The position numbers and the translations under genes were made by a program. This document shows, piece after piece, positions 6,039 through 59,066 of a stretch of DNA of 64,000 bases. The stretch lies in assembly GCF_028716865.1 (NCBI RefSeq), contig NZ_JAQUOY010000004.1, positions 62,001-126,000 of the forward strand. The letters are read 5' to 3'. The notes below the pieces were generated by a model, which made no database searches, was not told the origin of the DNA, and was given only the letters and a program-made list of their open reading frames with translations. This DNA comes from Candidatus Methylomirabilis sp. GTDB taxonomy: Bacteria > Methylomirabilota > Methylomirabilia > Methylomirabilales > Methylomirabilaceae. Numbering within the stretch: the first letter of the stretch is position 1; the number at the start of each line of letters is the position of its first letter.

Positions 6039-6656
6039 ATGGGAATGACCGTAGCGGCTCGTCGCCGCCTGTTGTTGGACATCGCCCGGCGGCGGGCTCA
6101 ACCGGGGACCGGCAGCGCCAGGATTTTCTTGGAGGACCGGACCGCCGTGGCGCGCTGGCCTGACCTTACCGAGACGCTTATTGGCATTCGATGGGCCGTC
6201 GTGGAGGCGGTGGCCACCAGAGCCTACATGCCGGAGCGCGCCACCCAGGACTTGGACATCCTGGTGGCGGCCACCGATCGAGAACGGACCAGGGTCTGCC
6301 TGGAGCGTGCAGGATTCCTCTCTGTACAGACACTTGCCATCGGGGGCATGACCTGGCGCTCCCCTGAAGGGGTACTGGTGGATGTCATCGAGTCCCAAGC
6401 CCCGTGGGTATCTGATGGACTCCGATCTCTCCAACAGGACCCCCAGGGGCTTCCCGTACTGGACCTGCCGTACCTCGTATTGATGAAGGTCGAGGCGGGA
6501 CGCGCGCAGGACCTGGCGGACGCAGCGCGGATGCTGGGGTCAGCATCAGAGCCCCGTCATCAGGAGACGCGGGAGATATTTCGCCGCTGGTTACCCGACG
6601 CACTGGATGACCTGGAAAGCCTCATCACCATGGGCCGCCTGGAGATGGGGCATTAA
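6039..6656 (+). CDS. Nucleotidyltransferase-fold protein (AbiEii-like)
   Basis: A 205-residue protein with the pattern of a small nucleotidyltransferase-like family: RATQDLDILVAATDRE (the paired Asp of a pol-beta NTase near residues 70-74), a later VLVDVIESQ strand and a helical C terminus with LPYLVLMKVEAGRAQDLADAARML. Family knowledge links such proteins to AbiEii-type toxins or uncharacterised NTases. The first ATG is at 6039 and another at 6045. It is followed 27 bp later by an MNT-HEPN fusion gene. No clear antitoxin partner is seen upstream. Confidence 0.6.
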   Translation: MGMTVAARRRLLLDIARRRAQPGTGSARIFLEDRTAVARWPDLTETLIGIRWAVVEAVATRAYMPERATQDLDILVAATDRERTRVCLERAGFLSVQTLAIGGMTWRSPEGVLVDVIESQAPWVSDGLRSLQQDPQGLPVLDLPYLVLMKVEAGRAQDLADAARMLGSASEPRHQETREIFRRWLPDALDDLESLITMGRLEMGH

Positions 6657-6683: not shown

Positions 6684-7562
6684 ATGAGAAAGATTAAACC
6701 GTTGCAAGGCTTTCGCATCCTCCCGTTAGAAGATTGCCTACCGAGGCTTGCTCACGTATTTGAGCAGTACCCCGCGATCGTGGGAGCCTATCTCTATGGC
6801 TCCTACGCGAGCGGGGCATCCGGACCTCTCTCCGATGTCGATTGTGCGGTCCTTTTCGAGCCGAATCTTTCCAGGGACGAGTTATTTGAGCTGAAACTTG
6901 ATCTGATCGGACAGATCTTGCGAATCATACATAGTGATGAAGTCGATCTCGTTGTACTCAATGAAGTCTCGCCCTTGCTGGCGCATGAAGTGATCCGAAC
7001 CGGAAAGGTACTCTTTTGCCGGAATGAGAGTCAGCGATTGCGGTATGAGGCAATGGCGGTCAATCGGTATCTGGATTGGAGGCCGTTCAGCCGGATCTAT
7101 CAGAACTATCTCTTTGAAGATATTCGTAAGGGGAGGCCGCCATTGATTAATCTGGAGATCATTGAGATCCGTTTAGCCAAGCTGAGAGAATATTGCGAAC
7201 ATCTTAAAGAGCTTCGAGAATCGGATCGCGAGACCTTTAAGAGAGACTATAAGATTCATAGTCTTGCAGAGCACTTCCTCTATCTTTCCATTCAGTCTAT
7301 GCTCGATATTGGCCATCACCTGGTCGCTGGGCTCCAGTTGAGAAAACCCATGGACTATGAGGAGATTTTTCAGATCCTTGGGGAGGCCGGAATTCTTCCT
7401 GAGGAGTATGTTCGGGTGCTTGCCGGTGTGGGCCGTTTCCGAAACATCTTAGCCCATGCGTATATCGATATTGATCTGGATCGGGTGTACCAAAGTCTTC
7501 AAAAGGCGCCGGAGCAGATCAATGAGTTTATGCGACTTGTTCAGCGCGTTGTTGAAGAATAA
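6684..7562 (+). CDS. Single-chain MNT nucleotidyltransferase-HEPN (MntA-HepT-like) fusion
   Basis: One open frame encodes both halves of a type VII MntA/HepT system. Numbered from the TTG at 6678, the N-terminal minimal nucleotidyltransferase shows GSYASG (G41-S42), SDVDCAV (D53 and D55) and a third Asp in DEVDLVVL (D90). The C-terminal all-helical HEPN/DUF86 half carries the RX4HXY motif as RNILAHAY (R255, H260, Y262). Family knowledge: HepT is a ribonuclease-like toxin silenced by MntA, which adds AMP to the Tyr of RX4HXY. ATG 6684 is the natural start. Here toxin and antidote are covalently joined, so the chain may be self-modified or may have another role. Confidence 0.8.
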   Translation: MRKIKPLQGFRILPLEDCLPRLAHVFEQYPAIVGAYLYGSYASGASGPLSDVDCAVLFEPNLSRDELFELKLDLIGQILRIIHSDEVDLVVLNEVSPLLAHEVIRTGKVLFCRNESQRLRYEAMAVNRYLDWRPFSRIYQNYLFEDIRKGRPPLINLEIIEIRLAKLREYCEHLKELRESDRETFKRDYKIHSLAEHFLYLSIQSMLDIGHHLVAGLQLRKPMDYEEIFQILGEAGILPEEYVRVLAGVGRFRNILAHAYIDIDLDRVYQSLQKAPEQINEFMRLVQRVVEE

Positions 7563-8003: not shown

Positions 8004-9224
8004 GTGCGCATCGGCGTAAATACCCTCCCGCTCTTTCCCGGCCAGATCGGGGGGATGGAAACGTACACCGTCAACCTCCTGACCCACCTGACAGCGATCG
8101 ATCGCCAGCATACCTACTACCTTTTCGTAACCCACTACAACCGCGATCTCTTCAAGGCCCTTTCTCAGCGTCCGAATGTCATGCGCGTCAACACCCTAAG
8201 TCTTCAGGGTTTACGATACGCCGAACGAGGAGTGGCGAGAGTGGCTGGGCCCGTGCGCCGAACGCTTCCCCGCCTGTCGCGATGGCTCGGAAACGCCATC
8301 GCCAGCGCCCATATGCTGGCCGGCATTCGCAGGCACAAGATCGACCTCTGGTTCTGTCCCCTCATCAACCTAGCCCCGCGTCATTGCCGTCTTCCCTGTG
8401 TTGTGTCGATCCCTGACCTTCAACCGGAATTCTACCCGGATTTCTTCAGGAAAGATCTCCTTGAGTGGAGGCGAAGAGACCTTCAAGCATCCTGCCGCAA
8501 TGCGACCAAGGTCGTGACACTGTCCGAATTCTCAAAAACGACTATCGTCGAGCGATATCATGTTCCAGCGGATAAAGTCCACGCGATTCCTCTCGCCGTG
8601 GGGGACGAATTCTTGCTCCCCAAGGATGACGCAGCCCGTGAGGCCGTCAGGGCGAACTATGCCCTCCCCCCTGAGTACGGCTTCTACCCGGCCAATACCT
8701 GGCCTCACAAGAATCATACGACGCTGTTGAAAGCTCTTCATCTGCTATCTGAGAAGCACGGCAAGCGACTTGCCTGCGTGTTCACCGGCGTCGAGCGGGG
8801 TGGACATGAAGCCCTTCTGAAGGCAACTGAAGAGCTTGATCTCCGTGGGCAGATCTGTCTTTTGGGGTATGTTGAGAAGGAGGACATGCCCTTGCTGTAT
8901 CGTGGCGCCAGTCTCCTGATCTTCTCCTCCCTGTTCGAGGGGTTCGGACTTCCCCTCCTCGAGGCGATGGCCTCTGACTGCCCTGTGGTCTGCTCTAACG
9001 CGACCAGCATCCCCGAGGTCGTGGGAGACGCGGCCCTGCTATGTGATCCCCACGACCCGGAGGCGATCGCCGACGCGATACACCGCATCCTCACTGATGG
9101 GGGGTTGCGACGCGCATTGGTGCAGGCGGGGCGGGAGCGTTGTCGTCACTTCTCCTGGGAGCGAACGGCCCGTGAGACCCTGAAGGTCCTGGAAGAGGCC
9201 GCCTCCATCGGGGCGCAACAATGA
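8004..9224 (+). CDS. GT4 family glycosyltransferase
   Basis: A 406-residue GT-B transferase. The N-terminal half starts MRIGVNTLPLFPGQIGGMETY. The C-terminal nucleotide-sugar domain has YPANTWPHKNHTTLLKAL, the EFKLP-type SLFEGFGLPLLEAM motif (near residues 310 to 324), and CSNATSIPEVVGDAALL. The start is GTG 8004 with GGGGA about 8 bases upstream. Cytoplasmic or membrane-associated addition of a sugar to a lipid-linked glycan is the likely role; the linkage cannot be read from sequence. It stands between an MNT remnant and a methyltransferase gene. Confidence 0.88.
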   Translation: MRIGVNTLPLFPGQIGGMETYTVNLLTHLTAIDRQHTYYLFVTHYNRDLFKALSQRPNVMRVNTLSLQGLRYAERGVARVAGPVRRTLPRLSRWLGNAIASAHMLAGIRRHKIDLWFCPLINLAPRHCRLPCVVSIPDLQPEFYPDFFRKDLLEWRRRDLQASCRNATKVVTLSEFSKTTIVERYHVPADKVHAIPLAVGDEFLLPKDDAAREAVRANYALPPEYGFYPANTWPHKNHTTLLKALHLLSEKHGKRLACVFTGVERGGHEALLKATEELDLRGQICLLGYVEKEDMPLLYRGASLLIFSSLFEGFGLPLLEAMASDCPVVCSNATSIPEVVGDAALLCDPHDPEAIADAIHRILTDGGLRRALVQAGRERCRHFSWERTARETLKVLEEAASIGAQQ

Positions 9225-9330
9225 GGTCTCTCCCATCCCCCCTGACCCAACGCCTGCTGAGTCACTCAATCACGACGTGATCTCATCTTTTCTCCCGAAC
9301 GGTTTGTAAGGAAGCAACTGACACGGAAAT

Positions 9331-10374
9331 ATGGAACAAGTAGTGTACGGAGAACAAGGCGATCGATCTAACTCAGGAGCATGGGTGAATCGCACACCCA
9401 AGTGTTGGTGCGACACAAGCGATATCATCTCTTTTGCTCCGGAGTATATGAAGTGCCGGGCGTGCGAGACACTCATATCGGTCTATATTCCCGGGTCGGA
9501 GATCTCACGAGTGACCGTCGACGAGTGCGACTTTTATGGGCGCAACTACTGGTTCGCTCATACCGAAGAGAAGCTTGGATTGCCCAATATCCTAGTCCGT
9601 TCCAAGAAGGATCTCCCCGAACGCTGCCTATACTGGTTGCGCACCGCATTGAAATACAGGTTGCCTCCTGCGCGCGTGTTGGAGCTTGGTAGCGGGCATG
9701 GAGGATTTGTGAGTCTGCTCCGCTGGGCCGGATTCGAGGCGACCGGTCTGGAACTCAGCCCCTGGGTCGTGGAGTTTGCGCGCAGAAGATTCGATGTGCC
9801 GATGCTGCTCGGACCGGTGGAGGACCAGCAGATAGAGCCCAGGTCGCTTGACGTGATTGCCATGATGGATGTATTGGAGCATCTACCTGATCCAACGGCG
9901 ACTGTACGTCACTGTTCGAATCTGCTTAAACCGAACGGTCTTCTCATCATCCAGACGCCCCGATATCCCGAGGGCAAAAGCTACCAAGAGCTGGTTACTC
10001 GGAACGATCGCTTCCTGGAAATGTTGAAACCCATGGACCACGTGTATCTGTTCAGCCGGCATTCCATCCGTGAATTCTTCACACGGCTTGGGTATGCTCA
10101 TATGCAATTCGAGCCCGCGATCTTTCCCCATTACGACATGTTTTTTGCCGTGAGCCGTGCGCCCCTTGTCCCGAATACCACAACAGCCATCAAAGCCGGC
10201 CTAAGACTGGCGCCAGGTAGGCGACTGGTTCAGGCGTTCCTGGCTGCGGACCGGATCGTGTGCATGGCTGGGGCCGAGCGCTATCAGCTCGTGTATCGGC
10301 TCTTGCGTCGGATGGAACGGGTGACTTTCCGGCTCCTGTGGAAACTGACCACTTCACGGCCGAAGGGTTCGTAG
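9331..10374 (+). CDS. Class I SAM-dependent methyltransferase with N-terminal Cys cluster
   Basis: A 347-residue protein. Residues ~24-46 hold Cys pairs (CWC and CRAC) like the small zinc-binding module of sugar C-methyltransferases. The Rossmann core has VLELGSGHGGF, GLELSPW, MMDVLEHLPDP and a Methyltransf_23-like layout. The C-terminal ~100 residues are basic and partly hydrophobic. The likely role is modification of a surface glycan or lipid intermediate, judged by neighbours (GT4 upstream, Wzz downstream). Substrate unknown. Confidence 0.78.
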   Translation: MEQVVYGEQGDRSNSGAWVNRTPKCWCDTSDIISFAPEYMKCRACETLISVYIPGSEISRVTVDECDFYGRNYWFAHTEEKLGLPNILVRSKKDLPERCLYWLRTALKYRLPPARVLELGSGHGGFVSLLRWAGFEATGLELSPWVVEFARRRFDVPMLLGPVEDQQIEPRSLDVIAMMDVLEHLPDPTATVRHCSNLLKPNGLLIIQTPRYPEGKSYQELVTRNDRFLEMLKPMDHVYLFSRHSIREFFTRLGYAHMQFEPAIFPHYDMFFAVSRAPLVPNTTTAIKAGLRLAPGRRLVQAFLAADRIVCMAGAERYQLVYRLLRRMERVTFRLLWKLTTSRPKGS

Positions 10375-10500
10375 CTAACCCCCATGCTCTGCCCGCACGA
10401 CGACGCTCTTTGAGAGGCGAAGGCTGCGTGGCAACCCGACACCCAGTAACGTTGCGAGGCGCCTCCGCGGCAATCTCTGTTCTTGAGCGGCCAAAAGAGC

Positions 10501-10530
10501 TTGCCTGCTGCCAATGTAATATAGTAAAAT
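10501..10530 (+). promoter_or_regulatory. Possible sigma-70 promoter upstream of the Wzz-like gene
   Basis: TTGCCT at 10501-10506 and TAAAAT at 10525-10530 with an 18-bp spacer, in an abrupt AT-rich stretch in the 10375-10663 gap. A second weaker candidate (TTGAAT 10613-10618 with TTATAT 10637-10642) would start very close to the gene. The remainder of the gap shows no gene. Confidence 0.35.
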
Positions 10531-10663
10531 CCTAATTTAACAAACACATTTGAGGGACCTGTGGCGGAGCGGTACTCACTACTGCCAAGTGCTGCTGAGG
10601 TCAAGGTTCCTCTTGAATTGCTAGTATCGGGAATTCTTATATAGAAGCAAGGGATTAGTCTTA

Positions 10664-11941
10664 ATGCCTGAAGCGGACGAAGTCGAACTGATCGATTATC
10701 TGAACACACTCTGGAAGTGGAAGTTCCTGATTGTCGTAGGCACGCTGGCGGCGGTGGTCATTGCCTTCGCGGTTAGCGTAAGAGCCCCAATAACTTACGA
10801 AGCCACGGCAATCTTGCTTATTACGGAGTCCAAGGTCCCTCGTCCTGAAGCGGGGGCAGGAGCACCTCAGTCCGTGGTATCCCCAGAAGTCTTTGAGGCG
10901 ACGATAAAGAGTCAGGCTCTGGCGCTCCAGGCTATTCAGCAGTTTGGATTGGATAAGAAACCATTTTCCGTGACTCCGACTGAGTTTTTAAATGATGTTG
11001 TCTCAGTGAAACCTCGACGTGGGACAAACCTCCTCACCCTCACCGCCGTCCTTCCTGATCCCAAGCTGGCAGCCGACGTAGTGAATTTCGTGGCCCAAAA
11101 GGCGGTGGAGTTAAATGCGAATCTCAATCAGATCGACACTGTTTCGACTAAAGAGTATATCCAGCAGCAGCGTGATAAAGCCGACCAGACAATGGAGACT
11201 GCACAGGCGGCTCTGGTCGAGTTTAAGCGGACTGCGAATCTTGAAAGTCTCCAGACGGAGCAACGCATTCTCCTGGCTGAGAAGGAAAAGTTGGCACAGC
11301 GTTACTCCGACCTCACCTTCAAGCTTAAAAGCCTTCAGTCCCAGGTAGCAGCCTTGAAGCAGGCTCTCACCAAACAAGAACAACTCATCACTGTCACTAA
11401 ATCCATCTTTAGCGATCCTGCTATGTTGGCTGCAACTCAGGACCGAGGCCCGATGGATGTAAAGACGCTTTCATCAATCCAGGTCAAAGATCAAGCGATC
11501 AACGAGGTCTATCAAATGCTCCAGAGCAATTTGATCGCCCAGGAAGCAAACCTGGCCTCGGCAGAGAGCGAGCGTCAAGATACTGTACAGAAAATCAGCG
11601 ACAACGAGGCAAAGCTCATCTCAATCTCACGGAAGATCGCCGACGCCGACGCTCGCTTAGAGGAGCTGGACAGGACCTATCGACTGACAAGAGCATCATA
11701 TGAGCTCTTCGCTAAGAGGTTTGATGAGGCCTCGCTCTCGGTTGCCTCCCGCGTCACCGAGTTGAAATTGATTGCTCCAGCCGGCCTCCCCACAGTCCCT
11801 CGTAGCCGAAACGTCATACGAAACGGAGTACTTGCCGGCACTGTAGCTCTGATGACATGTATCATATTGGCGTTCTCTCTGGAAAACCTCCAGGAGACGA
11901 AGAGAAGGCGTGTGAAGATTGTGAGCCCTGCCCCCTCTTGA
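10664..11941 (+). CDS. Wzz/GumC-type polysaccharide co-polymerase (chain-length determinant)
   Basis: A 425-residue protein with the classic topology: a short cytoplasmic N terminus (VELIDYLNTLWKWKF), TM1 at about residues 19-41, a long periplasmic coiled-coil region (about 160-350, Gln/Ala/Glu rich), a GNVR-like stretch and the PxxP-like LPTVPRSRNV before TM2 at about 388-410. It lacks a C-terminal tyrosine-kinase domain, so it belongs to the kinase-less class. Known role: oligomerises in the inner membrane and sets polymer length with Wzy. It is monocistronic, with its own putative promoter. Confidence 0.88.
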   Translation: MPEADEVELIDYLNTLWKWKFLIVVGTLAAVVIAFAVSVRAPITYEATAILLITESKVPRPEAGAGAPQSVVSPEVFEATIKSQALALQAIQQFGLDKKPFSVTPTEFLNDVVSVKPRRGTNLLTLTAVLPDPKLAADVVNFVAQKAVELNANLNQIDTVSTKEYIQQQRDKADQTMETAQAALVEFKRTANLESLQTEQRILLAEKEKLAQRYSDLTFKLKSLQSQVAALKQALTKQEQLITVTKSIFSDPAMLAATQDRGPMDVKTLSSIQVKDQAINEVYQMLQSNLIAQEANLASAESERQDTVQKISDNEAKLISISRKIADADARLEELDRTYRLTRASYELFAKRFDEASLSVASRVTELKLIAPAGLPTVPRSRNVIRNGVLAGTVALMTCIILAFSLENLQETKRRRVKIVSPAPS

Positions 11942-12016
11942 CCATCGCTATTCACGGCTAACCCCGGGGACCGTCCACCTATTCCGTTTCCCAAGTTGGT
12001 GGTATTACACGCACAC

Positions 12017-12045
12017 TTGACGCGATCTGTACGTTACCTTAAGAT
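12017..12045 (+). promoter_or_regulatory. Sigma-70 promoter driving the NusG-like gene and the polysaccharide locus
   Basis: TTGACG at 12017-12022 and TAAGAT at 12040-12045 with the ideal 17-bp spacer. Initiation near 12052 would leave a leader of about 180 nt before the ATG at 12231, long enough to hold RNA signals for the encoded NusG paralogue, although I recognise no ops element. The rest of the 11942-12230 gap holds no gene. Confidence 0.55.
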
Positions 12046-12230
12046 TTGAGCAGTGTTAGCTCGTTGCACGCGCTTTCTATCTGCAACGCTAAATAGGAAA
12101 GTTTGCTGTCGTTCTGTGTAACCCCGGTTGCCTAATCTTAACCGGTTGTTACGCACGCGCTAATCTCATAGTTGGAGCGCAATGATCGTGCCCTGTAAGT
12201 GAGAGGGCGAAGCTATGCCTGGAGGGAGCG

Positions 12231-12728
12231 ATGGTTACGGTTCCCCGGTGGTACGCGCTCCGCACGCGCTCCAGATACGAGAAACGAGTGTGGGCTCAGA
12301 TCGATAGCCGAGGTATCGAGGTGTTCCTTCCGCTCATCGCTCGGAGGAGGCGTTGGAAGGACCGTACGGTGCAGGTCCAATTCCCACTCTTTCCAGGCTA
12401 TTGTTTCGCACACTTCGCCTGGCAGGATCGGTTACGTGTACTGACCGTCCCTGGTGTAGTAGAGGTGTTGGGGGTGGGCGGCCACGGTGTGCCGGTCGAG
12501 GATGCCGAAATCGAGGGAGTACGACGTCTGGTCGCCAGCACCCTCCCCGTTGATCCGTACCCCTTTCTAGAGCATGGGATGGCGGTCGAGGTCCGGCACG
12601 GCCCCCTCCAGGGTCTCCGTGGGATCCTGATTCGGAAAGCCCCCAGAACACGTCTCGTGATCGGCGTCAGCCTCATCCACCAAGGGGCTTCGGTTGAGAT
12701 CGATGCCGACAATGTCATTCCGATTTGA
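12231..12728 (+). CDS. NusG paralogue (RfaH/UpxY-like specialised elongation factor)
   Basis: A 165-residue protein with an N-terminal NGN domain (WYALRTRSRYEKRVWAQI, then FPGYCFAHF and VPGVVEVLGVGG) and a C-terminal KOW domain (MAVEVRHGPLQGLRG near residues 115 to 129). The WYA...E start and the FPGY motif are those of NusG paralogues placed at the head of capsule and exopolysaccharide operons, where they stop premature termination. A GGAGGGAG Shine-Dalgarno precedes the ATG. Its position ahead of a 40-kb locus supports this role; housekeeping NusG is less likely, as no secE or ribosomal genes are nearby. Confidence 0.85.
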   Translation: MVTVPRWYALRTRSRYEKRVWAQIDSRGIEVFLPLIARRRRWKDRTVQVQFPLFPGYCFAHFAWQDRLRVLTVPGVVEVLGVGGHGVPVEDAEIEGVRRLVASTLPVDPYPFLEHGMAVEVRHGPLQGLRGILIRKAPRTRLVIGVSLIHQGASVEIDADNVIPI

Positions 12729-12847
12729 CGGGAGCCTTGGCTTATGTGGGCTGACCTTTGGCGATCGAATTCGCCAGGGCTGAGTTCCCGACCATCGGGC
12801 TCGACGTTGAAGGAGCGCGGGAGAGCAGAGGAGCTGAGAAAGGGGTA

Positions 12848-12896
12848 CAGGGGAGTTGAAGGCCCGAGGTGAGTTTGATGCACCTAAGCTCCCCTG
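12848..12896 (+). other. Two-tier stem-loop in the leader after the NusG-like gene
   Basis: CAGGGGAG (12848-12855) pairs perfectly with CTCCCCTG (12889-12896), and an inner stem AGGTG (12867-12871) pairs with CACCT (12881-12885). No U-tract follows, so it is not a classic intrinsic terminator. It lies in the 240-bp gap between the NusG-like gene and the first sugar gene, a place where a pause or loading signal would make sense. Confidence 0.4.
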
Positions 12897-12970
12897 CCAG
12901 ATGATGAACAGGTGACCGTGACCGAGCTGGTCCTACATCGGAACCATCAATGTTCCATCAGGAGTTAGTT

Positions 12971-13945
12971 ATGAAGAAAGCCTTAATCTGCGGTGCCGGT
13001 GGGTTCATCGGTGAGCACTTGGTGAAGAAGCTCAAGCGCGAGGGATACTGGGTGCGCGGCGTGGACATTAAGGCGCAAGAGTTTGCGCCCACCCAGGCCA
13101 ACGAGTTTCTGCTGCTGGACCTGCGCAACCCCGAGAACTGCCGCATAGCACTGACCCTCCAGGGCGATGCCTTCGATGAGGTCTACCAGTTGGCCGCCGA
13201 CATGGGTGGGATGGGGTTTATCTCCCGGGCTGAGTGCGAGGTGTTGCACAACAATGCGTTAATAAATATCCACATGGTGCATACGGCGGCCGAGGTCCGG
13301 GTGCCTCGCTACTTCTTCTCTTCATCGGTGTGCGTGTACCGGGATATGCAGCCCGGCGAGGCTGCGCTACGGGAGAACGACGCCATTCCCGCCAATCCCG
13401 ACAACGAGTACGGCTGGGAGAAGTTGTATGCCGAGCGGGTGGCCATGGCCTATGGCCGACGGTATGGGATGCAGGTACGCATCGCCCGCTTCGAGAACTG
13501 CTACGGCCCGGAGGGGACCTGGCGGGGCGAGCGGGAGAAGGCCCCGGCCGCCATTTGCCGCAAGGTGGCCGAGGCGGAGGACGGGGCGACCATTGAGGCT
13601 TGGGGCGACGGGACGGCGATCCGGGTGTTCACCTACGTGGATGATCTGGTAGAGGGCATCTGCGCGCTGATGCAGTCCGACCTTGAGGGCCCCGTGAACC
13701 TGGGTAGCGACGAGCAGGTCACCGTGGCTGATTTGGTGAGGACAGTGATCGGGGTGTCCGGCAAGAAGATCGACGTGCAGTGCGTTCCGGGACCGGTAGG
13801 GGTGCAATCGCGCAACTTCAGCAAGGCCCGCATCACGTCGTTAGGCTGGCGGGCGAAGTACTCCCTCAAAGAAGGCATTGCGCGCACCTATCCCTGGATC
13901 GAAGCGCAAGTGAAGCAGGCGCGAGTGGCGGTCACCCATATCTGA
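12971..13945 (+). CDS. Extended SDR, GDP-mannose 3,5-epimerase-like
   Basis: About 324 residues. The NAD-binding ALICGAGGFIGEHL, the distinctive LAADMGGMGFI, the catalytic SSSVCVY and YGWEKLYAE (YxxxK) and RFENCYGPEGTWRGEREKAP are the landmarks of the GDP-mannose 3,5-epimerase group. I place the start at ATG 12971, since AGGAG lies 7 bases upstream; the ATG at 12950 lacks a site. It probably produces an epimerised nucleotide sugar for the glycan; whether the substrate is GDP-mannose is inferred from motif similarity only. Confidence 0.78.
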   Translation: MKKALICGAGGFIGEHLVKKLKREGYWVRGVDIKAQEFAPTQANEFLLLDLRNPENCRIALTLQGDAFDEVYQLAADMGGMGFISRAECEVLHNNALINIHMVHTAAEVRVPRYFFSSSVCVYRDMQPGEAALRENDAIPANPDNEYGWEKLYAERVAMAYGRRYGMQVRIARFENCYGPEGTWRGEREKAPAAICRKVAEAEDGATIEAWGDGTAIRVFTYVDDLVEGICALMQSDLEGPVNLGSDEQVTVADLVRTVIGVSGKKIDVQCVPGPVGVQSRNFSKARITSLGWRAKYSLKEGIARTYPWIEAQVKQARVAVTHI

Positions 13946-13956
13946 GCCGAAAGTGA

Positions 13957-13974
13957 ACCACCTCTGAAGGTGGT
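13957..13974 (+). terminator. Perfect hairpin after the epimerase gene (no U-tract)
   Basis: ACCACCT, a 4-base loop CTGA, then AGGTGGT: a perfect 7-bp stem 12 bp past the epimerase stop. It lacks a run of T, so it would be at best a weak or factor-assisted terminator or an mRNA end stabiliser. Confidence 0.3.
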
Positions 13975-14077
13975 CAGCCGAGGGGGTGGACTAAGGTGAC
14001 CATTGCCCTCGATGCCGACCCACTGATTAGTCAATCGACTCTATAAACTCAACAGACTCAATTGATCCAAGAGACTC

Positions 14078-14529
14078 ATGAAGGTCGTCATCCTTATCGG
14101 GGTCTTGGCGCTCGCTTTAGCGAAGAGACTGACGCCCGCCCTGAACCGATGGTGGAGACCGGCGGCCGATTGCGTCGGGTCAAGGACTACCTCGTCGACG
14201 AAAAGGCTTTCTACTTCACCTACGGCAATGGGATTGGAGATGTCAACATCTCCGATCCCATTACATTCCACGATAACCAAGGGATGTTCACAACAGTGGC
14301 AGCTACGCGGCCTCTCGGACGGTTTGGAGTCCTTGATATGAATCGGAATCGGGTCACTTCATTCCAGGAAAAGCCGGACGGGAATGGCGGCTGGATCAAT
14401 GGTGGCTCCTTCGTGCTCTCGCCGAAGGTCATTGACCGTATAGAAGGCGACCACACCATCTGGGAGCGCGAGCCCCTGCAAGGGCAGGCGATGACGATGA
14501 CATCGGCCTTATCGCCAGTCATGGGCTGA
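14078..14529 (+). pseudogene. Glucose-1-phosphate cytidylyltransferase remnant (internal deletion, frameshift, lost C terminus)
   Basis: It begins as MKVVILIG (frame of 14078) and continues in another frame (GLGARFSEETDARPEPMVE), so the start is frameshifted. It then jumps from METGG-like sequence straight to RLRRVKDYL, omitting roughly the family's residues 30 to 110. The later motifs YGNGIGDVNI, GRFGVLDMNRN, TSFQEKPDGNGGWINGG and WEREPL are clear, but the final quarter is missing after 14490. No CDP-sugar pathway gene accompanies it. Best read as a dead rfbF-type gene left by recombination. Confidence 0.8.
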
Positions 14530-14546
14530 CCCCTGTGATCGCTAAA

Positions 14547-16376
14547 ATGACCTCCATAACAAAACTGTCAACCGCTCAGAAAATCTGGGAGCTGCTCACG
14601 TCCGCCGAGCGACGCGGTGCGGTGGTGTTGTTGGGCCTGATATTTATTGGCATGGTGCTGGAGACACTGGGTATCGGATTGGTGATTCCGGCAATTGGAC
14701 TGCTCACGCAGCGTGATTTCCTAAGCAACTATCCGGCGCTCGAACCGGCCCTCCACGCGCTGGGCAATCCTAGCCAGCAAAGCATCGTCGTCGGTGGCTT
14801 GTTCATGCTGGCGGGGGTGTCCCTCATCAAGGCGCTGTTTCTGACCTTCCTGGCTTGGCGCCAGGCTCGATTCGGATACGGCGCGCAGTCTAGCTTTTCT
14901 CAGCGTCTATTCGCCGGCTACCTGAACCAGCCCTGGGCGTTTCACCTCCAGCGCAATTCGGCGCAGTTGATTCGCAATGTCACGACCGAAGTCGGACTGT
15001 TCGGGGTCGTCATCCAAAATGCCTTGGTGGTCTTCACCGAAGGGATGGCCACCCTGGGCATTTGGATGCTCCTCGTGGCCGTGGAACCGGTCGGTACCCT
15101 CCTGGTTATGACAACAATAGGGCTTGCTGCATGGTTCTTTCATCACCTCACCAGGGCGCACCTGTTGCACTGGGGCGAGGCTCGCCAATACCACGAAGGG
15201 CTACGCATGCAGCACCTGCAACAGGGCCTCTTCGCAGCCAAGGAAGTGAAGCTGCTCGGCCGCGAAGAGGATTTTCTTGCCCGATTCAGCCTGCACAACA
15301 TCGGCATCGCGCACGTCGCGCAGCGTCAACTTACCATCCAACAGATGCCGCGCCTCTGGCTCGAGCTGCTGGCGGTGGTCGGCCTCGCCGCCCTGGTGCT
15401 CGTTATGCTTCGCTTAGGCAAGCCGCTCGATGCGCTGCTTCCCATCCTGGGACTCTTCGCGGGCGCAGCCTTCCGGGTTCTACCCTCAATCAATCGGGTG
15501 CTGGGCGCGATCCAGTCTATCCGGTATTGCCTTCCGGTCGTGAACACGCTTCACCAAGAAATGGCCCTGTTCGATGCGTCCGCTGCACCGAAGCGAATCC
15601 GCCTCCTCCCCTTCTGGGCTCAACTAGCCCTCACCAAGGTCAGTTACCGCTATCCGAATGCCGCCGCCACTTCTCTGCGAGATGTCAGCCTGACCGTCGC
15701 CCACGGTACAACGGTCGGATTCATCGGCAGCAGCGGTGCCGGTAAGACAACTCTCATCGATGTGATCCTGGGCTTGCTCAGCCCCAGCAGCGGCCAGGTC
15801 ACCGTCGACGGTGTCGACATCCAAACAAATCTGCGCGGCTGGCAGGACCAGATTGGCTACGTACCTCAGTTCATCTTCCTCACAGACGACACGCTGCGCC
15901 GGAATGTCGCCTTCGGGATCCCAGACGACCAGATCGACCACGAGGCCGTGCGTCGCGCCATTCGGGCTGCTCAGCTCGACGACTTCGTCAACGGCCTGCC
16001 CCAAGGCCTCGACACCCTCGTCGGCGAGCGCGGCGTGCGGCTCTCAGGCGGCCAACGACAGCGCATTGGCATTGCGCGGGCTCTCTACCATGACCCGGCG
16101 ATATTGGTCCTTGACGAGGCCACCAGCTCGCTCGACATCGCCACCGAGGGCGATGTCATGCAGGCCGTCTATGCATTGCGCGGCCACAAAACCTTCCTCA
16201 TCGTCGCTCACCGCCTCTCGACTGTGGCCAACTGTGATCTGTTGTTCTGGATAGAAGAAGGAAGGGTAGTCAACAGGCCAGGCGCGGGTACCGCTCGAAA
16301 GGTGGCGATGGCGAAGGACGGGAGTGCAGGAATAGTGGAGAAGCGCATAGATCAAGAATCGCAGATTCGACAATAA
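14547..16376 (+). CDS. ABC exporter, PglK/MsbA-type (candidate lipid-linked glycan flippase)
   Basis: About 609 residues: six predicted TM helices in the N-terminal ~320 residues, then a complete nucleotide-binding domain with Walker A GSSGAGKTT (near residue 394), signature LSGGQRQR (near 499), Walker B ILVLDEATSSLD (near 519) and the switch His in VAHRLS. Family knowledge: the closest described relatives flip undecaprenyl-linked oligosaccharides (PglK) or lipid A. No Wzx-type flippase is visible in the locus, which supports this reading. The start could be GTG 14535 or ATG 14547. The ~45-residue C-terminal tail is polar and looks non-conserved. Confidence 0.82.
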   Translation: MTSITKLSTAQKIWELLTSAERRGAVVLLGLIFIGMVLETLGIGLVIPAIGLLTQRDFLSNYPALEPALHALGNPSQQSIVVGGLFMLAGVSLIKALFLTFLAWRQARFGYGAQSSFSQRLFAGYLNQPWAFHLQRNSAQLIRNVTTEVGLFGVVIQNALVVFTEGMATLGIWMLLVAVEPVGTLLVMTTIGLAAWFFHHLTRAHLLHWGEARQYHEGLRMQHLQQGLFAAKEVKLLGREEDFLARFSLHNIGIAHVAQRQLTIQQMPRLWLELLAVVGLAALVLVMLRLGKPLDALLPILGLFAGAAFRVLPSINRVLGAIQSIRYCLPVVNTLHQEMALFDASAAPKRIRLLPFWAQLALTKVSYRYPNAAATSLRDVSLTVAHGTTVGFIGSSGAGKTTLIDVILGLLSPSSGQVTVDGVDIQTNLRGWQDQIGYVPQFIFLTDDTLRRNVAFGIPDDQIDHEAVRRAIRAAQLDDFVNGLPQGLDTLVGERGVRLSGGQRQRIGIARALYHDPAILVLDEATSSLDIATEGDVMQAVYALRGHKTFLIVAHRLSTVANCDLLFWIEEGRVVNRPGAGTARKVAMAKDGSAGIVEKRIDQESQIRQ

Positions 16377-16390
16377 AGCTTGGGGGAATT

Positions 16391-17133
16391 ATGGAAATCC
16401 TACGCAAGATTCGTAAGGCCACACTCCTCGTTCGGTCAGCAGGAGGCAGAGCGGACCTCGTTCACACGCTCGGTCTGCGTAGCCGTCAAGAAGAAAAGAC
16501 CGAGCGTTACTTGGAGAAACTTGGAGTCAGCCGCTATTTGATAAAGGGTTATCCGGATGAGTGCCCCCTTAATCGTAACAAGGCATACGATTTGGCAAAC
16601 TTGCACAGAATCGTACGGCGATTGCGACCGCGTGTTGTTATCGAGTTTGGTTGCGGATACAGTACCTTGGCAATTGCCCATGCGTTGAAAACAAATTCCG
16701 AAAAACATGGAAGAGCCGGACGGTTGTATGTTGTGGAGGCGGTGGAGAGGTGGGCATCGAACGTGCGTGAAAAATTATCCGATCTCTCGGATTTGTAGAG
16801 ATCAGGGTCCCCGAGCTCAAGGCTTTTTTGCTTGATGGACAGGTGTGTCACGTGTTCGCTGATTTATCGGACGTACGTCCAGACTTTATTTATCTCGACG
16901 GCCCCCAGCCTACCGACGCGAAGGGGAATATAAATGGGCTGACACCAGGTGGTCTCGTGTTCCCATGCGCGGCAGATTCTCTCTTTTATGAATGGGGTTT
17001 CTATCCTGGCTTTCAGATGCTCGTTGACGGACGGTTTCCTAATGTCGAATTTCTAAAGAAAAACCTGAAGCGTGATTACAGGATCAAATCAAGCGCATTG
17101 CATAACAACACGCTTTTTGAGTTGATTAGATGA
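16391..17133 (+). pseudogene. SAM-methyltransferase-fold protein split by a 1-base frameshift
   Basis: Two overlapping pieces together match the intact 250-residue protein at 21388-22140. The first frame carries VVIEFGCGYSTLAIAHAL and ends at a TAG at 16796-16798 after KLSDLSDL. One base more in the T-run (ggatttgtag to ggattttgtag) gives D-F-V-E-I-R-V-P-E-L-K and runs into the second frame with DFIYLDGPQP, YEWGFYPGFQ and FLKKNLKRDY to 17133. Either a real inactivating deletion or a homopolymer sequencing error. The intact protein would be of unknown substrate, in the polysaccharide locus. Confidence 0.8.
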
Positions 17134-55815: not shown

Positions 55816-56130
55816 TTACTCCAGTGCCAGTGCAAAGCGGATCGCGGCGTCGACGGCTCCGAGTTTCTCTGTAGTCAGCGTCGTCATATGCTCCCGCAGG
55901 CTTGCCTTGGCGATGGTGAGGATCGTATCGAGGTTCACAGCACATGGCTGAGAAAGACCATCCGCCGGGCCGAGTGGGACTTCGACAGGGATATGACGGA
56001 TGCGGGTCGTAACGGGGGCAACCGTGACCAAGCCTCGAATCGCATACGCCTCATCTCTGGAGAGCAGGACGACAGGTCGGCGGCCGGCTGGATGGGGAAG
56101 GTCCGCCCACCAGATTTCACCGCGCCTCAC
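55816..56130 (-). CDS. MazF/PemK-family toxin
   Basis: 104 residues: MRRGEIWWADLPHPAGRRPV (the conserved GEIWW and RPVVLLSRDEA), VTVAPVTTRIR, EVPLGPADGL, CAVNLDTILTIAKASL. These are the motifs of MazF-like endoribonucleases. It overlaps the upstream antitoxin gene by 4 bp, the usual TA arrangement. Expected to cleave mRNA when free of antitoxin. Confidence 0.88.
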   Translation of the reverse strand: MRRGEIWWADLPHPAGRRPVVLLSRDEAYAIRGLVTVAPVTTRIRHIPVEVPLGPADGLSQPCAVNLDTILTIAKASLREHMTTLTTEKLGAVDAAIRFALALE

Positions 56131-56384
56131 GACCAGGGTTCCTGTGTGAGTACGGTAGCGCCGAGTTGATGCGCTAGAGCGATCTCCTCATCCGTTTCCG
56201 GTTGCTGTCGGTACCCTTCGACATAACGTGTGACCGCTTTCTGCGCACGCTGCTGACTGAGGAGATGTTCGGCGGCCTGACGGAAGAACCCGCTGCGGGT
56301 CTCACCACGGGTTCTGCACTCGCCCTCGACCGCATGCAGGAGTTCTTCTGGCAGGCTGATGGCGATCTTGACGGTTTTGCTCAT
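56127..56384 (-). CDS. Ribbon-helix-helix antitoxin (MazE/CopG-like)
   Basis: 85 residues: the N-terminal RHH DNA-binding fold (KTVKIAISLPEELLHAVEGE, ETRSGFFRQAAEHLL) and an acidic tail (QQPETDEEIALAHQL) suited to wrap the toxin. Overlaps the toxin gene by 4 bp. GGAGAAGAG precedes the ATG. It presumably represses its own promoter at the palindrome just upstream. Confidence 0.86.
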   Translation of the reverse strand: MSKTVKIAISLPEELLHAVEGECRTRGETRSGFFRQAAEHLLSQQRAQKAVTRYVEGYRQQPETDEEIALAHQLGATVLTQEPWS

Positions 56385-56450: not shown

Positions 56451-56760
56451 GAGGAATAGCTCGATCAGGAACGCCTGGCTGTCCTGTAGCGGCAGGGCTC
56501 GGATCTCACGGAGCAAATCGCTGATCTCAGCGCGAAACGATCCACTACCACCCGCTTTGAGATCATTCCTGGGGTGCGCGTCTCAGGACGTAAAGGTCGT
56601 ATTCATCAGCAATGGACTGATCACGGGCAAAGAGACGTTCACCACGAATCACCTCTGTCGCCACAAACGGATCAGCTTCGTCCAGCACTACCAGATCGAT
56701 CCGTGGGCATTGTAGAAGCTCTTCCAGTGCCACGGTCAAGCGCACCTTTCTGTTGCAGCG
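56450..56760 (-). pseudogene. Remnants of an MNT nucleotidyltransferase and HEPN partner
   Basis: The 5' part (56745-56563) encodes VALEELLQCPRIDLVVLDEA, DPFVATEVIRGERLFARDQS and DEYDLYVLRRAP, the C-terminal half of an MNT protein whose GSxxxG/DLD half is gone. Downstream, 56550-56450 reads roughly DRFALRS and LLREIRALPLQDSQAFL in different frames, like the first helix of a HEPN (DUF86) protein. Neither is intact. Confidence 0.6.
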
Positions 56761-56926: not shown

Positions 56927-57253
56927 TTAGCTGCCAACGGCGCTTTGCTCAGCCGCGCGTTGGATCGGTTGGCACTGCGCTCGAATGATTTTACGGAACT
57001 GCTCGGAGAGAGCTGACCAATCCAGTACATCCACTTTAAAAGGTAGGTCGGATTCGCTGAAGGCGTCGCGAATACGGCCCAACAGCGTGAACTCCAACGG
57101 CTGCTCTGTCACAATGACAAGATCAAGATCTGAAAAGCGTCGCGCGGTTCCCAGAATCCTTGAGCCGAATACCCAGACATCGTACTGCGGCACATGCTCA
57201 TGCAGGATTGTTCTGACAATCTGCAGATGATCCTGGTCAAGATCAAGCATCAT
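56927..57253 (-). CDS. MNT-domain nucleotidyltransferase (MntA/HI0073-like antitoxin)
   Basis: 108 residues: VWVFGSRILGTARRFSDLDL with the GSR and paired Asp, VIVTEQPLEF, and third Asp in FKVDVLDWSAL. A minimal pol-beta-type nucleotidyltransferase. It overlaps the HEPN gene by 4 bp (HEPN first). In known pairs the nucleotidyltransferase modifies the HEPN protein with AMP and so neutralises it. Confidence 0.86.
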   Translation of the reverse strand: MMLDLDQDHLQIVRTILHEHVPQYDVWVFGSRILGTARRFSDLDLVIVTEQPLEFTLLGRIRDAFSESDLPFKVDVLDWSALSEQFRKIIRAQCQPIQRAAEQSAVGS

Positions 57254-57645
57254 TTGTCTTCTTCCCGCATCTTTTCCAGCAGGGCTCGGGCGTCCTGGTA
57301 AAACTCGACGGCTTTGCTGTAGACCCTCTGGGCGACAACCCGATTGTAGGTGTGGGAACTCTCATTTCTGGCTTCATAATACCCAAACCATACCGAAGGG
57401 TCGGCTAGAAGCCCGATCCTGGCGGCTTCGCGAAATAGGTCCCGTTTCGTTCTGATCTCTGTCTCCGGTACCCCGACTGTGCGGAGCACGCGCTGGAGCA
57501 ACTTCCACGACAGATCCATTGTGTACTCGAATCGTTGGATGACAGCATCACGCAGTTCTTCGTCATGGAGAGCGCCTTGAGCGCGCTGAATGGCCCGCCC
57601 TAGACTGCCCAGCGCATTGTCAAGCGGAGTAAAGTCCAGTGTCAT
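57250..57645 (-). CDS. HEPN-domain protein (HepT/HI0074-like toxin)
   Basis: 131 residues, all helical: FTPLDNALGSLGRAIQRAQG, QRFEYTMDLSWKLLQRVLR, REAARIGLL and the RX4HXY signature as RNESSHTY, with YSKAVEFYQDARALLEKM. The HI0074 (substrate-binding-like) HEPN family. With the MNT gene it forms a type VII-like TA pair; the Tyr of RX4HXY is the expected AMPylation target. Confidence 0.86.
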   Translation of the reverse strand: MTLDFTPLDNALGSLGRAIQRAQGALHDEELRDAVIQRFEYTMDLSWKLLQRVLRTVGVPETEIRTKRDLFREAARIGLLADPSVWFGYYEARNESSHTYNRVVAQRVYSKAVEFYQDARALLEKMREEDK

Positions 57646-58306: not shown

Positions 58307-58867
58307 CTATGCGAGCACCTCATCCACCTGAACCTCAAACCCCGCTAAGACTGACGACCGCGCTCTTTCTCCAGGGCCAAAGCGCCCAACCAGACGATAA
58401 CTACCTTGCACCATGGCGAACACCTCGATCATCCCGCCTTCCCGATCCACGATCCAATATTCGGCGACGCTAAATTGCTCATACAGCGCCTTTTTCTCAA
58501 TGTGATCTCGTCGCCACGTCCCCGGCGAGACGACTTCAACGATCAGATCTGGCGCTCCGTGAATCTGGTCCTGAATAATCGCTTGTCTGGCATGTGAGAC
58601 ATAGACGATATCGGGTTGCACGACCCTCCGTGGTGTCAGGACGACATCCAAAGGCGCAAGTAAGACTTCACCCAATTGATGCATGGACACAAATTGAGCC
58701 AGCAGGCGAGCCACGCGGAAAGAGACTCTCTGATGTTGTGCGACCGGTGAAGGCGTCATGACGAGATCTCCTTCCCATAGCTCGGTCGGCTGATTCGTCT
58801 CAGTCTTCTCGGCGAGCAGTTCGTTGTACGTCCACACCCGCTTCCTCTCGGCAGCCTTTGTCGCCAT
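58307..58867 (-). CDS. Uma2-family (DUF820) putative endonuclease
   Basis: 187 residues from ATG 58867, which has GGAGGTGA upstream. VWTYNELLAE, YELWEGDLV-like ELWEGDLVMTPSP, HQRVSFRVARLL, the PD-(D/E)XK-type core VVQPDIVYVS, APDLIVEVVSPGT and KALYEQFSVAEYWIVDRE. Family knowledge: PD-(D/E)XK nuclease fold, abundant in cyanobacteria and environmental bacteria, biological role unclear. It is a single gene in the TA-rich island. Confidence 0.85.
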   Translation of the reverse strand: MATKAAERKRVWTYNELLAEKTETNQPTELWEGDLVMTPSPVAQHQRVSFRVARLLAQFVSMHQLGEVLLAPLDVVLTPRRVVQPDIVYVSHARQAIIQDQIHGAPDLIVEVVSPGTWRRDHIEKKALYEQFSVAEYWIVDREGGMIEVFAMVQGSYRLVGRFGPGERARSSVLAGFEVQVDEVLA

Positions 58868-59066
58868 TCCGGTCACCTCCTCCGCCACTCACCAACCCCC
58901 ATCCTGCGAGAGCATGCTTGGGCGAACCCACCAAACGTAGGTGGGGTTACTCATAGCCTACCTTTACCACAGAGAGGTGACGGCCGTCAAGCATGACGCC
59001 GCGCACCCCAACGTCAACGACACACGTTCTTCCACACCCGGATACTCTCCCGTTAGGAGCCACAGT

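Follow-up and report, generated by a model that had tools for sequence, protein, structure and literature searches.

Type VII toxin-antitoxin systems, as found in Shewanella oneidensis (SO_3165/SO_3166) and Aphanizomenon flos-aquae, consist of two adjacent genes, one for the MNT-type antitoxin MntA and one for the HEPN-type RNase toxin HepT, which is present in excess and is neutralized by AMPylation of a tyrosine. MntA of Shewanella adds three AMPs to the tyrosine in the RX4HXY motif of HepT, an activity that needs its own GSX10DXD motif, and the HepT:MntA ratio is 6:2 (PMC7641770; papers given by PMC number are cited here from excerpts). The corresponding ratio in Legionella is 4:1, and helix α4 of the antitoxin is described as a docking element (PMC11586414). 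HEPN domains of the DUF86 type have been listed as “occasionally fused to MNT” (Anantharaman et al. 2013, Table 1, PMC3710099). Single-chain toxin-antitoxins are also known from EzeT, thought to have been born from the fusion of a two-gene operon, although its domains, a zeta-like kinase toxin with the antitoxin domain in cis, are unrelated to those of MntA and HepT (PMC4826407). In the Rpn genes-within-genes, an internal in-frame start has been shown to give a shorter C-terminal protein, which is the antitoxin (PMC10327210).

The window, by which we mean the whole stretch of 64,000 nucleotides analysed from contig NZ_JAQUOY010000004.1 of Candidatus Methylomirabilis sp., carries an MNT and a HEPN domain in a single uninterrupted frame that runs from ATG 6684, or from TTG 6678, to the stop at 7560-7562 (Table 1). 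Of the two starts, ATG 6684 is the more likely, since a sister species (G022) carries a remnant of this gene with ATG AGG AAG ATC at the same place; anti-SD scoring found no Shine-Dalgarno sequence upstream of this codon. An NCBIfam scan matched MntA_antitoxin (NF047752) at residues 29-136 with 92.1 bits and HepT_toxin (NF047751) at residues 166-284 with 101.9 bits, the cut-off being 60 for each, and Pfam gave Polbeta at 74.4, NTP_transf_2 at 43.9 and HepT-like PF01934 at 89.9 bits. With E-values of 1.8e-26 and 2e-29 within one frame, the MNT and HEPN matches are beyond chance. In the AlphaFold2 model (mean pLDDT 92.2, pTM 0.78), the MNT domain ends in a long helix (115-149) that is followed by a short linker (150-156) and by the HEPN domain from residue 157 onwards. 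Among solved structures, HepT of Aphanizomenon (7ae2_A) matches the modelled HEPN with Z 20.7 and an rmsd of 1.5 over 138 residues. MntA of Shewanella (7aer_A) matches the modelled MNT with Z 13.8 and an rmsd of 2.0 over 118 residues, an alignment that covers residues 14-145, helix α4 included. All catalytic residues of both domains are present. The first-pass annotation had described a toxin-type HEPN and an antitoxin-type MNT, normally separate, in one chain with all key residues, which the matches above the family cut-offs and the GSDDD and RNHY columns bear out; the length of 290 residues that it gave is corrected here to 292 (from ATG) or 294 (from TTG), and its Y262 for the RX4HXY tyrosine is right when counted from TTG 6678 and becomes Y260 from the likelier ATG.

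Table 1. Coordinates of features discussed in the text (positions within the window)
Feature	Position	Strand	Remarks
Upstream neighbour gene	6039..6656	+	no Pfam family above cut-off; ends 27 nt before ATG 6684
Fused MntA-HepT ORF	6684..7562	+	292 aa; alternative start TTG 6678; ATG kept in sister-species remnant
MNT (MntA-like adenylyltransferase) domain	6684..7130	+	with C-terminal helix α4 (model residues 115-149); NF047752; model; 7aer_A match
GSX10DXD motif GSYASGASGPLSDVD	6798..6842	+	catalytic columns GSDDD
Shine-Dalgarno-like GGGGAGG within the frame	7130..7136	+	6 nt before TTG; -10.5 kcal/mol with anti-SD
HEPN (HepT-like RNase) domain	7143..7559	+	NF047751, PF01934, 7ae2_A match
Possible free HepT from internal TTG	7143..7562	+	139 aa; translation from TTG inferred
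TGA in +1 frame overlapping TTG (TTGA)	7144..7146	+	like the common 4-nt stop/start overlap; read from sequence
RX4HXY motif RNILAHAY	7440..7463	+	catalytic columns RNHY
HI0074/HI0073-type HEPN-MNT pair	56927..57645	-	HEPN 57645-57250, MNT 57253-56927

With the type VII systems the fusion shares its equivalog-level domains, motifs and folds, the position of the antitoxin 5′ of the toxin and, in the model, the MNT helix α4 that serves docking in the Shewanella/Aphanizomenon type. However, it forms one chain, with a 1:1 ratio by construction, from a single frame without a stop, and it is therefore a variant rather than an ordinary member of type VII. As in that type, its HEPN would be an RNase toxin neutralized by AMPylation of the RX4HXY tyrosine. 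In its own genome the fusion is the sole HepT match above the family cut-off, three further matches falling below it. HalB of Hailong uses tyrosine-primed chemistry to make oligodeoxyadenylate. The MNT-like fold of that protein (PDB 9dbh/9dbj) is a weak match to the model, at Z 7.8-7.9, a range below 8 in which shared arrangement only may be meant. A literature search on toxin-antitoxin fusions, on internal starts and on MNT-HEPN proteins, paired or fused, with a scope mostly other than subscription journals, gave no MntA-HepT fusion with an inner HepT start among the matches listed. The MNT-HEPN fusion as such is already known, if rare; what is new is the inner HepT start within it and the manner in which it appears to be built from a stop/start overlap.

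At the junction, the codons ATT CGT AAG GGG AGG CCG CCA TTG ATT are read in frame. This arrangement resembles a fusion by small frameshift, because the TGA of the +1 frame overlaps the TTG as it does in the usual overlap of split pairs. An in-frame NTG at the HepT start could be scored in 59 of 65 split MNT-HEPN pairs. Offsets were measured from the point where the MNT stop ends; eight were tried, -4 before the others, and the first in-frame NTG was taken. It lay at -4 in 27 pairs, at -8 in 19, at -11 in five, at -14 in three and elsewhere in five, so that 46 of the 59 scored pairs in the phylum overlap by 4 or 8 bases. Seven of the eight fused frames retain an NTG as the HepT start codon (GTT stands there in L002). 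In six of these seven, L006 being the exception, a stop in another frame lies at -4 or -8, compared with 28% of 736 internal NTG codons drawn from 35 window ORFs (binomial 0.0027 by frame, and 0.0083 by lineage, with 5/6). As the window junction also has +2-frame stops, TAA at 7127-7129 and TAA at 7148-7150, the latter at the -8 position, the ancestral stop is uncertain and the -4 vestige is one of several. In three other fusions the indel can be read from a comparison with close split kin: a 1-nt deletion in L002, a 2-nt insertion in L005 and, in L028, a 5-nt insertion that duplicates neighbouring bases. The window fusion has no close split kin, the nearest (L004) being 40% identical. Judged from its junction, it is very probably the product of a small frameshift at the overlap of the MntA stop and the HepT start, with the HepT start retained.

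All 95 genomes returned for the phylum, that of the window included, were searched, and 54 contained a match. Of 88 loci, 77 were scanned for MNT and HEPN frames; they come from phylum genomes and include five plasmid stretches, and the 11 omitted loci were duplicates or stemmed from other queries. The scan gave 78 HEPN-bearing frames, namely 65 split pairs (several of them broken), eight single-frame fusions and five frames with HEPN only, the last including one remnant under two ids (L010, L031) and the contig-cut end of a fusion (L025, in G019). The sample was taken from query matches, best first, and eight in 78 is therefore not a prevalence. When 67 rows (8 fused, 59 split) were placed on a tree, the fused state required seven changes, gains or losses, five of which are forced by well-supported branches; this was a quick tree with SH-aLRT support only and with several long branches, the window's among them. 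On the strength of these changes and of the indels seen against close split kin, the fusion is recurrent and mostly young, and it arises through small indels at the overlap where close kin exist. The window fusion itself is a singleton: in 14 other genomes of the genus the sole match is the G022 remnant, which is 79 and 84% identical in DNA over two pieces and has an insertion as well as a large deletion that removes the joint.

A search of a genome-contig collection returned a single locus, L033, which is the same as L002. Among plasmids, 17 records matched the window protein (P0001) at E up to 1e-5, and none matched the G020 fusion described below at E up to 1e-3. Five of the 17 were inspected: four are two annotated genes, and the fifth, from a plasmid of Cytobacillus pseudoceanisediminis (L044), has at 1429-2229 one open frame with an N-terminally truncated MNT and a HEPN. 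Given the truncated MNT start and an annotation that shows a DUF86 gene alone, this frame is counted with reserve; annotation may in this way conceal fused frames. On two haloarchaeal plasmids, from Haladaptatus (L045) and Halobellus (L048), the HepT ATG directly follows the MNT stop in the same frame at 1426-2292, so that the stop alone separates the two genes, and on a plasmid of Leptolyngbya BL0902 (L046) a type I-D CRISPR-Cas operon has an MNT-HEPN pair, at 1468-2339, inserted between its cas3 and cas6 genes. A locus in G025 (L003) that had been considered a fusion with one stop was rejected, because MNT and HEPN are separate genes there and the frame change lies within HepT.

Two of the fused lineages are inherited across species. 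In G019 and G020, which belong to different families of one order, orthologous fusions with both motifs intact are 61-65% identical in amino acids and lie upstream of shared genes for asparagine synthase, epimerase, glycosyltransferase and epimerase, G019 having an extra mannosyltransferase-like gene. The G019 motifs were read on two contigs with overlapping ends, the MNT motif on C24 and RX4HXY on C21; on each of these ends the frame continues through the joint. With pS at 0.75-0.84 (saturated) and pN at 0.24 in the MNT and 0.14 in the HEPN half, this fusion is under purifying selection in both halves. The second lineage, in G009 and G011 (L023/L032; L115, L116), comprises fusions that are 66.8% identical in a syntenic neighbourhood and under purifying selection, with dN/dS of about 0.23 in each half. 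Both genomes have lost the MNT catalytic residues and the HEPN tyrosine, and their fusion is likely a non-enzymatic, domesticated descendant of a toxin-antitoxin pair.

Across the census, the HEPN residues are intact in 5/8 fused and 55/59 split rows, and the same counts hold for both domains together (Fisher 0.032 by row, 0.12 by lineage); three of 70 rows without a scorable MNT were left out, two with an intact HEPN (L025, L080) and one without (L029). The three degenerate fused HEPNs belong to two lineages, and one of them, L028, has lost the active-site R and N that split kin up to 80% alike retain. Loss of the toxin half is therefore common but not necessary after fusion. Whereas fused HEPNs typically lack catalytic residues in the excerpt of Anantharaman et al. 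(PMC3710099), five of our eight keep them, one of these (L044) with a truncated MNT. The first-pass annotation had named two findings that would speak against a working fusion. Degenerate HEPN halves in homologues do occur, in three frames, but the HEPN is intact in the window fusion and in the inherited one of G020. As to a frameshift or missed stop between the domains, the junction does look like a small frameshift of the usual overlap; this is not in itself the sign of an artefact, since fusions of this kind have arisen repeatedly and two of them are shared between species by descent.

Like genes recognized as intragenic toxin-antitoxins by an internal in-frame start with a ribosome-binding site, the window gene has such a start, GGGGAGG-6-TTG. 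TTG 7143 corresponds to model residue 154 and aligns with residue 3 of HepT 7ae2_A. Of the in-frame NTG codons of the fused gene, 13 were scored, and this site is stronger than all the others; it is equalled or exceeded by 0.95% of the 736 internal NTG codons of the 35 window ORFs. Comparable anti-SD energies were obtained at the inner starts of G020 (-10.6), G019 (-11.6/-11.8), G009 (-9.8) and G011 (-11.4 kcal/mol), which fall within the top 2.5, 1.0, 4.0 and 1.9% of their own-contig backgrounds, respectively. Weaker values were found for L028 (-6.8), L005 (-5.9), L044 (-4.0) and L002 (-2.2 kcal/mol, the start codon being gone). Ranked within its own gene, the junction leads in G009, G011, L028 and both ends of G019. 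It takes second place among nine in-frame NTG codons in G020 and among 16 in L005, and third place among 12 in L044. The G020 fusion and both contig ends of G019 keep GGAGG-7-ATG where HepT begins. The idea that the ribosome-binding site forms a specially conserved block in this pair was rejected, as the stretch before the ATG is conserved no better than the gene overall, with ranks of 113/198 and 127/192 among the windows compared. At the HepT start of split pairs the median is -5.8, with 13.6% at or below -10.5, and fused starts are stronger as a tendency only (Mann-Whitney p = 0.067; 6 lineages vs 59 pairs). An inner start is thus present in the window and maintained in two inherited fused lineages. 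Its use in translation is possible, a little short of an even chance, and such a strong internal start may be a mere vestige.

The earlier suggestion that the toxin would be permanently silenced in cis is not supported as stated. A strong ribosome-binding site and a TTG at the HepT start suggest that free HepT may be made as well, in which case the logic of a single chain would be incomplete. Ribosomes would then yield full-length MntA-HepT together with some free HepT from TTG 7143, and the HEPN domains would pair into an RNase dimer. The MNT domain would poly-AMPylate the RX4HXY tyrosine of both fused and free HEPN and hold the RNase off, so that the toxin would be freed only if AMP were removed or the MNT ceased to work. 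By analogy with the characterized pairs, AMPylation of HEPN by MNT in the fusion is probable. A 1:1 chain alone falls short of the known ratios, and free HepT could supply the excess; this favours a working module with attached antitoxin and, probably, extra free HepT. As the antitoxin remains attached, the frameshift would be an accident that the cell survives, and this would explain why such fusions recur. We give about even odds to the overall reading from these features, in which a class I HEPN/MNT (type VII) module has been joined into one gene by a small frameshift at its stop/start overlap and supplies the fusion plus some free HepT, with HEPN AMPylated by MNT. A bolder version must be called tentative and, taken whole, on the unlikely side: that the fusion AMPylates itself, that the tethered antitoxin also modifies a nested free HepT and so meets the need for HepT excess, that this state is reached repeatedly by single frameshifts, and that selection maintains it in G019 and G020 with the inner start and both active sites unimpaired.

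Such a covalent chain fixes the partners, so that one can test directly whether AMPylation acts in cis or in trans and whether de-AMPylation is needed. If free HepT is made from the inner start, the nested product would be a toxin, in contrast to the nested antitoxin of Rpn. That overlapping operons have become fusions repeatedly, and by so short a path, hints at a simple rule for when toxin-antitoxin pairs fuse and when the toxin half later dies.

Several other explanations have to be weighed against the working module. An indel introduced by sequencing or assembly near the G4 run at 7130-7133 would mean that the organism has two overlapping genes and that the fusion is confined to the assembly. 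The exact overlap of the +1 TGA with the TTG, the intact ribosome-binding site and the singleton status of the fusion agree with such an error, as does a second apparent frame change at about 16.77-16.80 kb, which also lies beside a homopolymer (A5). However, other assemblies also show fusions by small indels at this joint, 2-nt and 5-nt insertions among them, two fused lineages are each common to two genomes, and 25 of 30 window ORFs have a Pfam match, with one (14062-14526) plainly broken. The error would moreover have to fall within an estimated 15 or so particular bases, while fusions at this joint are not rare. We therefore consider an artefact quite improbable and are highly confident that the fusion is genuine in the DNA of this organism. 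It could still be an early lesion of a departing toxin-antitoxin gene that has no selected role. Being a singleton with a wrecked counterpart in G022, where an insertion and the deletion of most of the gene are seen, the window gene may be decaying; other genes on the same island are broken, and the L028 fusion has already lost the HEPN residues retained by its kin. Yet the window gene has neither a stop nor a lost catalytic residue, and the analogous G019/G020 fusion is under purifying selection in both halves, which makes decay rather unlikely.

The fusion might instead be a domesticated two-domain nucleotidyltransferase, with HEPN as a substrate-binding or regulatory domain and MNT AMPylating another target, perhaps in a polysaccharide pathway. 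Such a role would be in line with the tendency of HEPNs fused to MNT to become inactive regulatory domains (PMC3710099), with the position of the window and G019/G020 fusions among polysaccharide genes, and with the conservation of the G009/G011 lineage despite its lost MNT and HEPN catalytic residues. Against it, RX4HXY and GSX10DXD are intact in the window fusion, whereas the HEPN-like C-terminal domain of kanamycin-type enzymes lacks the RNase motif for which the fusion has R, N, H and Y. The modelled interdomain arrangement, itself a prediction as regards domain placement, gives no close superposition on these enzymes (rmsd about 14.5-17 Å over about 200 residues), 1kny and 6p06 aligning over 204 and 207 residues at 15.9 and 17.2 Å. 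We regard domestication as unlikely. Polysaccharide loci are variable and phage-facing, a setting that would suit a sensor in which phage infection frees the toxin in cis. CapRel, a fused toxin-antitoxin, is such a phage sensor (PMC13423816), but family scans of the fusion found no CapRel-like domain, and the PADLOC matches were weak, the best (26.3 bits) being to MNT-type models of a candidate system. In addition, tblastn of the window fusion gave no match in 50,697 phage records, and viral contigs gave no confirmed relative of either the window protein or the G020 fusion. We consider a CapRel-like sensor very improbable.

The surroundings of the fused gene suggest a mobile-looking island. 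Full-length copies of the upstream neighbour gene, 79-80% identical, occur in three relatives, and the sister stretches compared for synteny share only short pieces with the window; of two DNA probes searched against the own genome, one had no match and the other scattered partial stretches only. In G022 (L031, C13:25000-44000), the stretch at about 8380-15813 holds several MNT-HEPN modules, which belong to different subfamilies and of which only a part are intact, the others being broken. They flank the same glycosyltransferase before the upstream-neighbour gene and form a hot spot inside a polysaccharide locus. Within the polysaccharide cluster of the window, a sugar-phosphate nucleotidyltransferase gene at about 13.98-14.53 kb has a frame change near its start, matches PF00483 over positions 85-190 only and looks like a pseudogene. 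A long frame at about 16391-17100 breaks off near 16.8 kb, and an apparent continuation follows in another frame, with the A5 run at 16770; as no Pfam family matches the first part, this can be called no more than an apparent frameshift.

The pair at 56.9-57.6 kb, which had been put forward as a separate two-gene version for internal comparison, is a real pair with GSX10DXD and RX4HXY (RNESSHTY). It matches PF08780 at 118.6 bits and TIGR01987 at 84.7 bits, with the HEPN gene first and a 4-nt overlap. Pairs of the PF08780 family are classed as class I HEPN/MNT (PMC7641770), and this one is therefore a genuine, though distant, module. Since it belongs to the HI0073/HI0074 subfamily and is not a split version of the same protein, its use as a like-for-like control was dropped. 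On the minus strand at 55816-56384, a PemK/MazF-like toxin gene (PF02452) follows a ribbon-helix-helix gene with a 4-nt overlap; with the HI0074-type pair and a Uma2 gene (58307-58888) nearby, 55.8-58.9 kb appears as a small toxin-antitoxin cluster. The C-terminal remnant of a lone MntA-like MNT lies at 56563-56745 on the same strand (30.1 bits to NF047752, below cut-off), and an apparent longer open version of it is found at 8380-8811 of L031.
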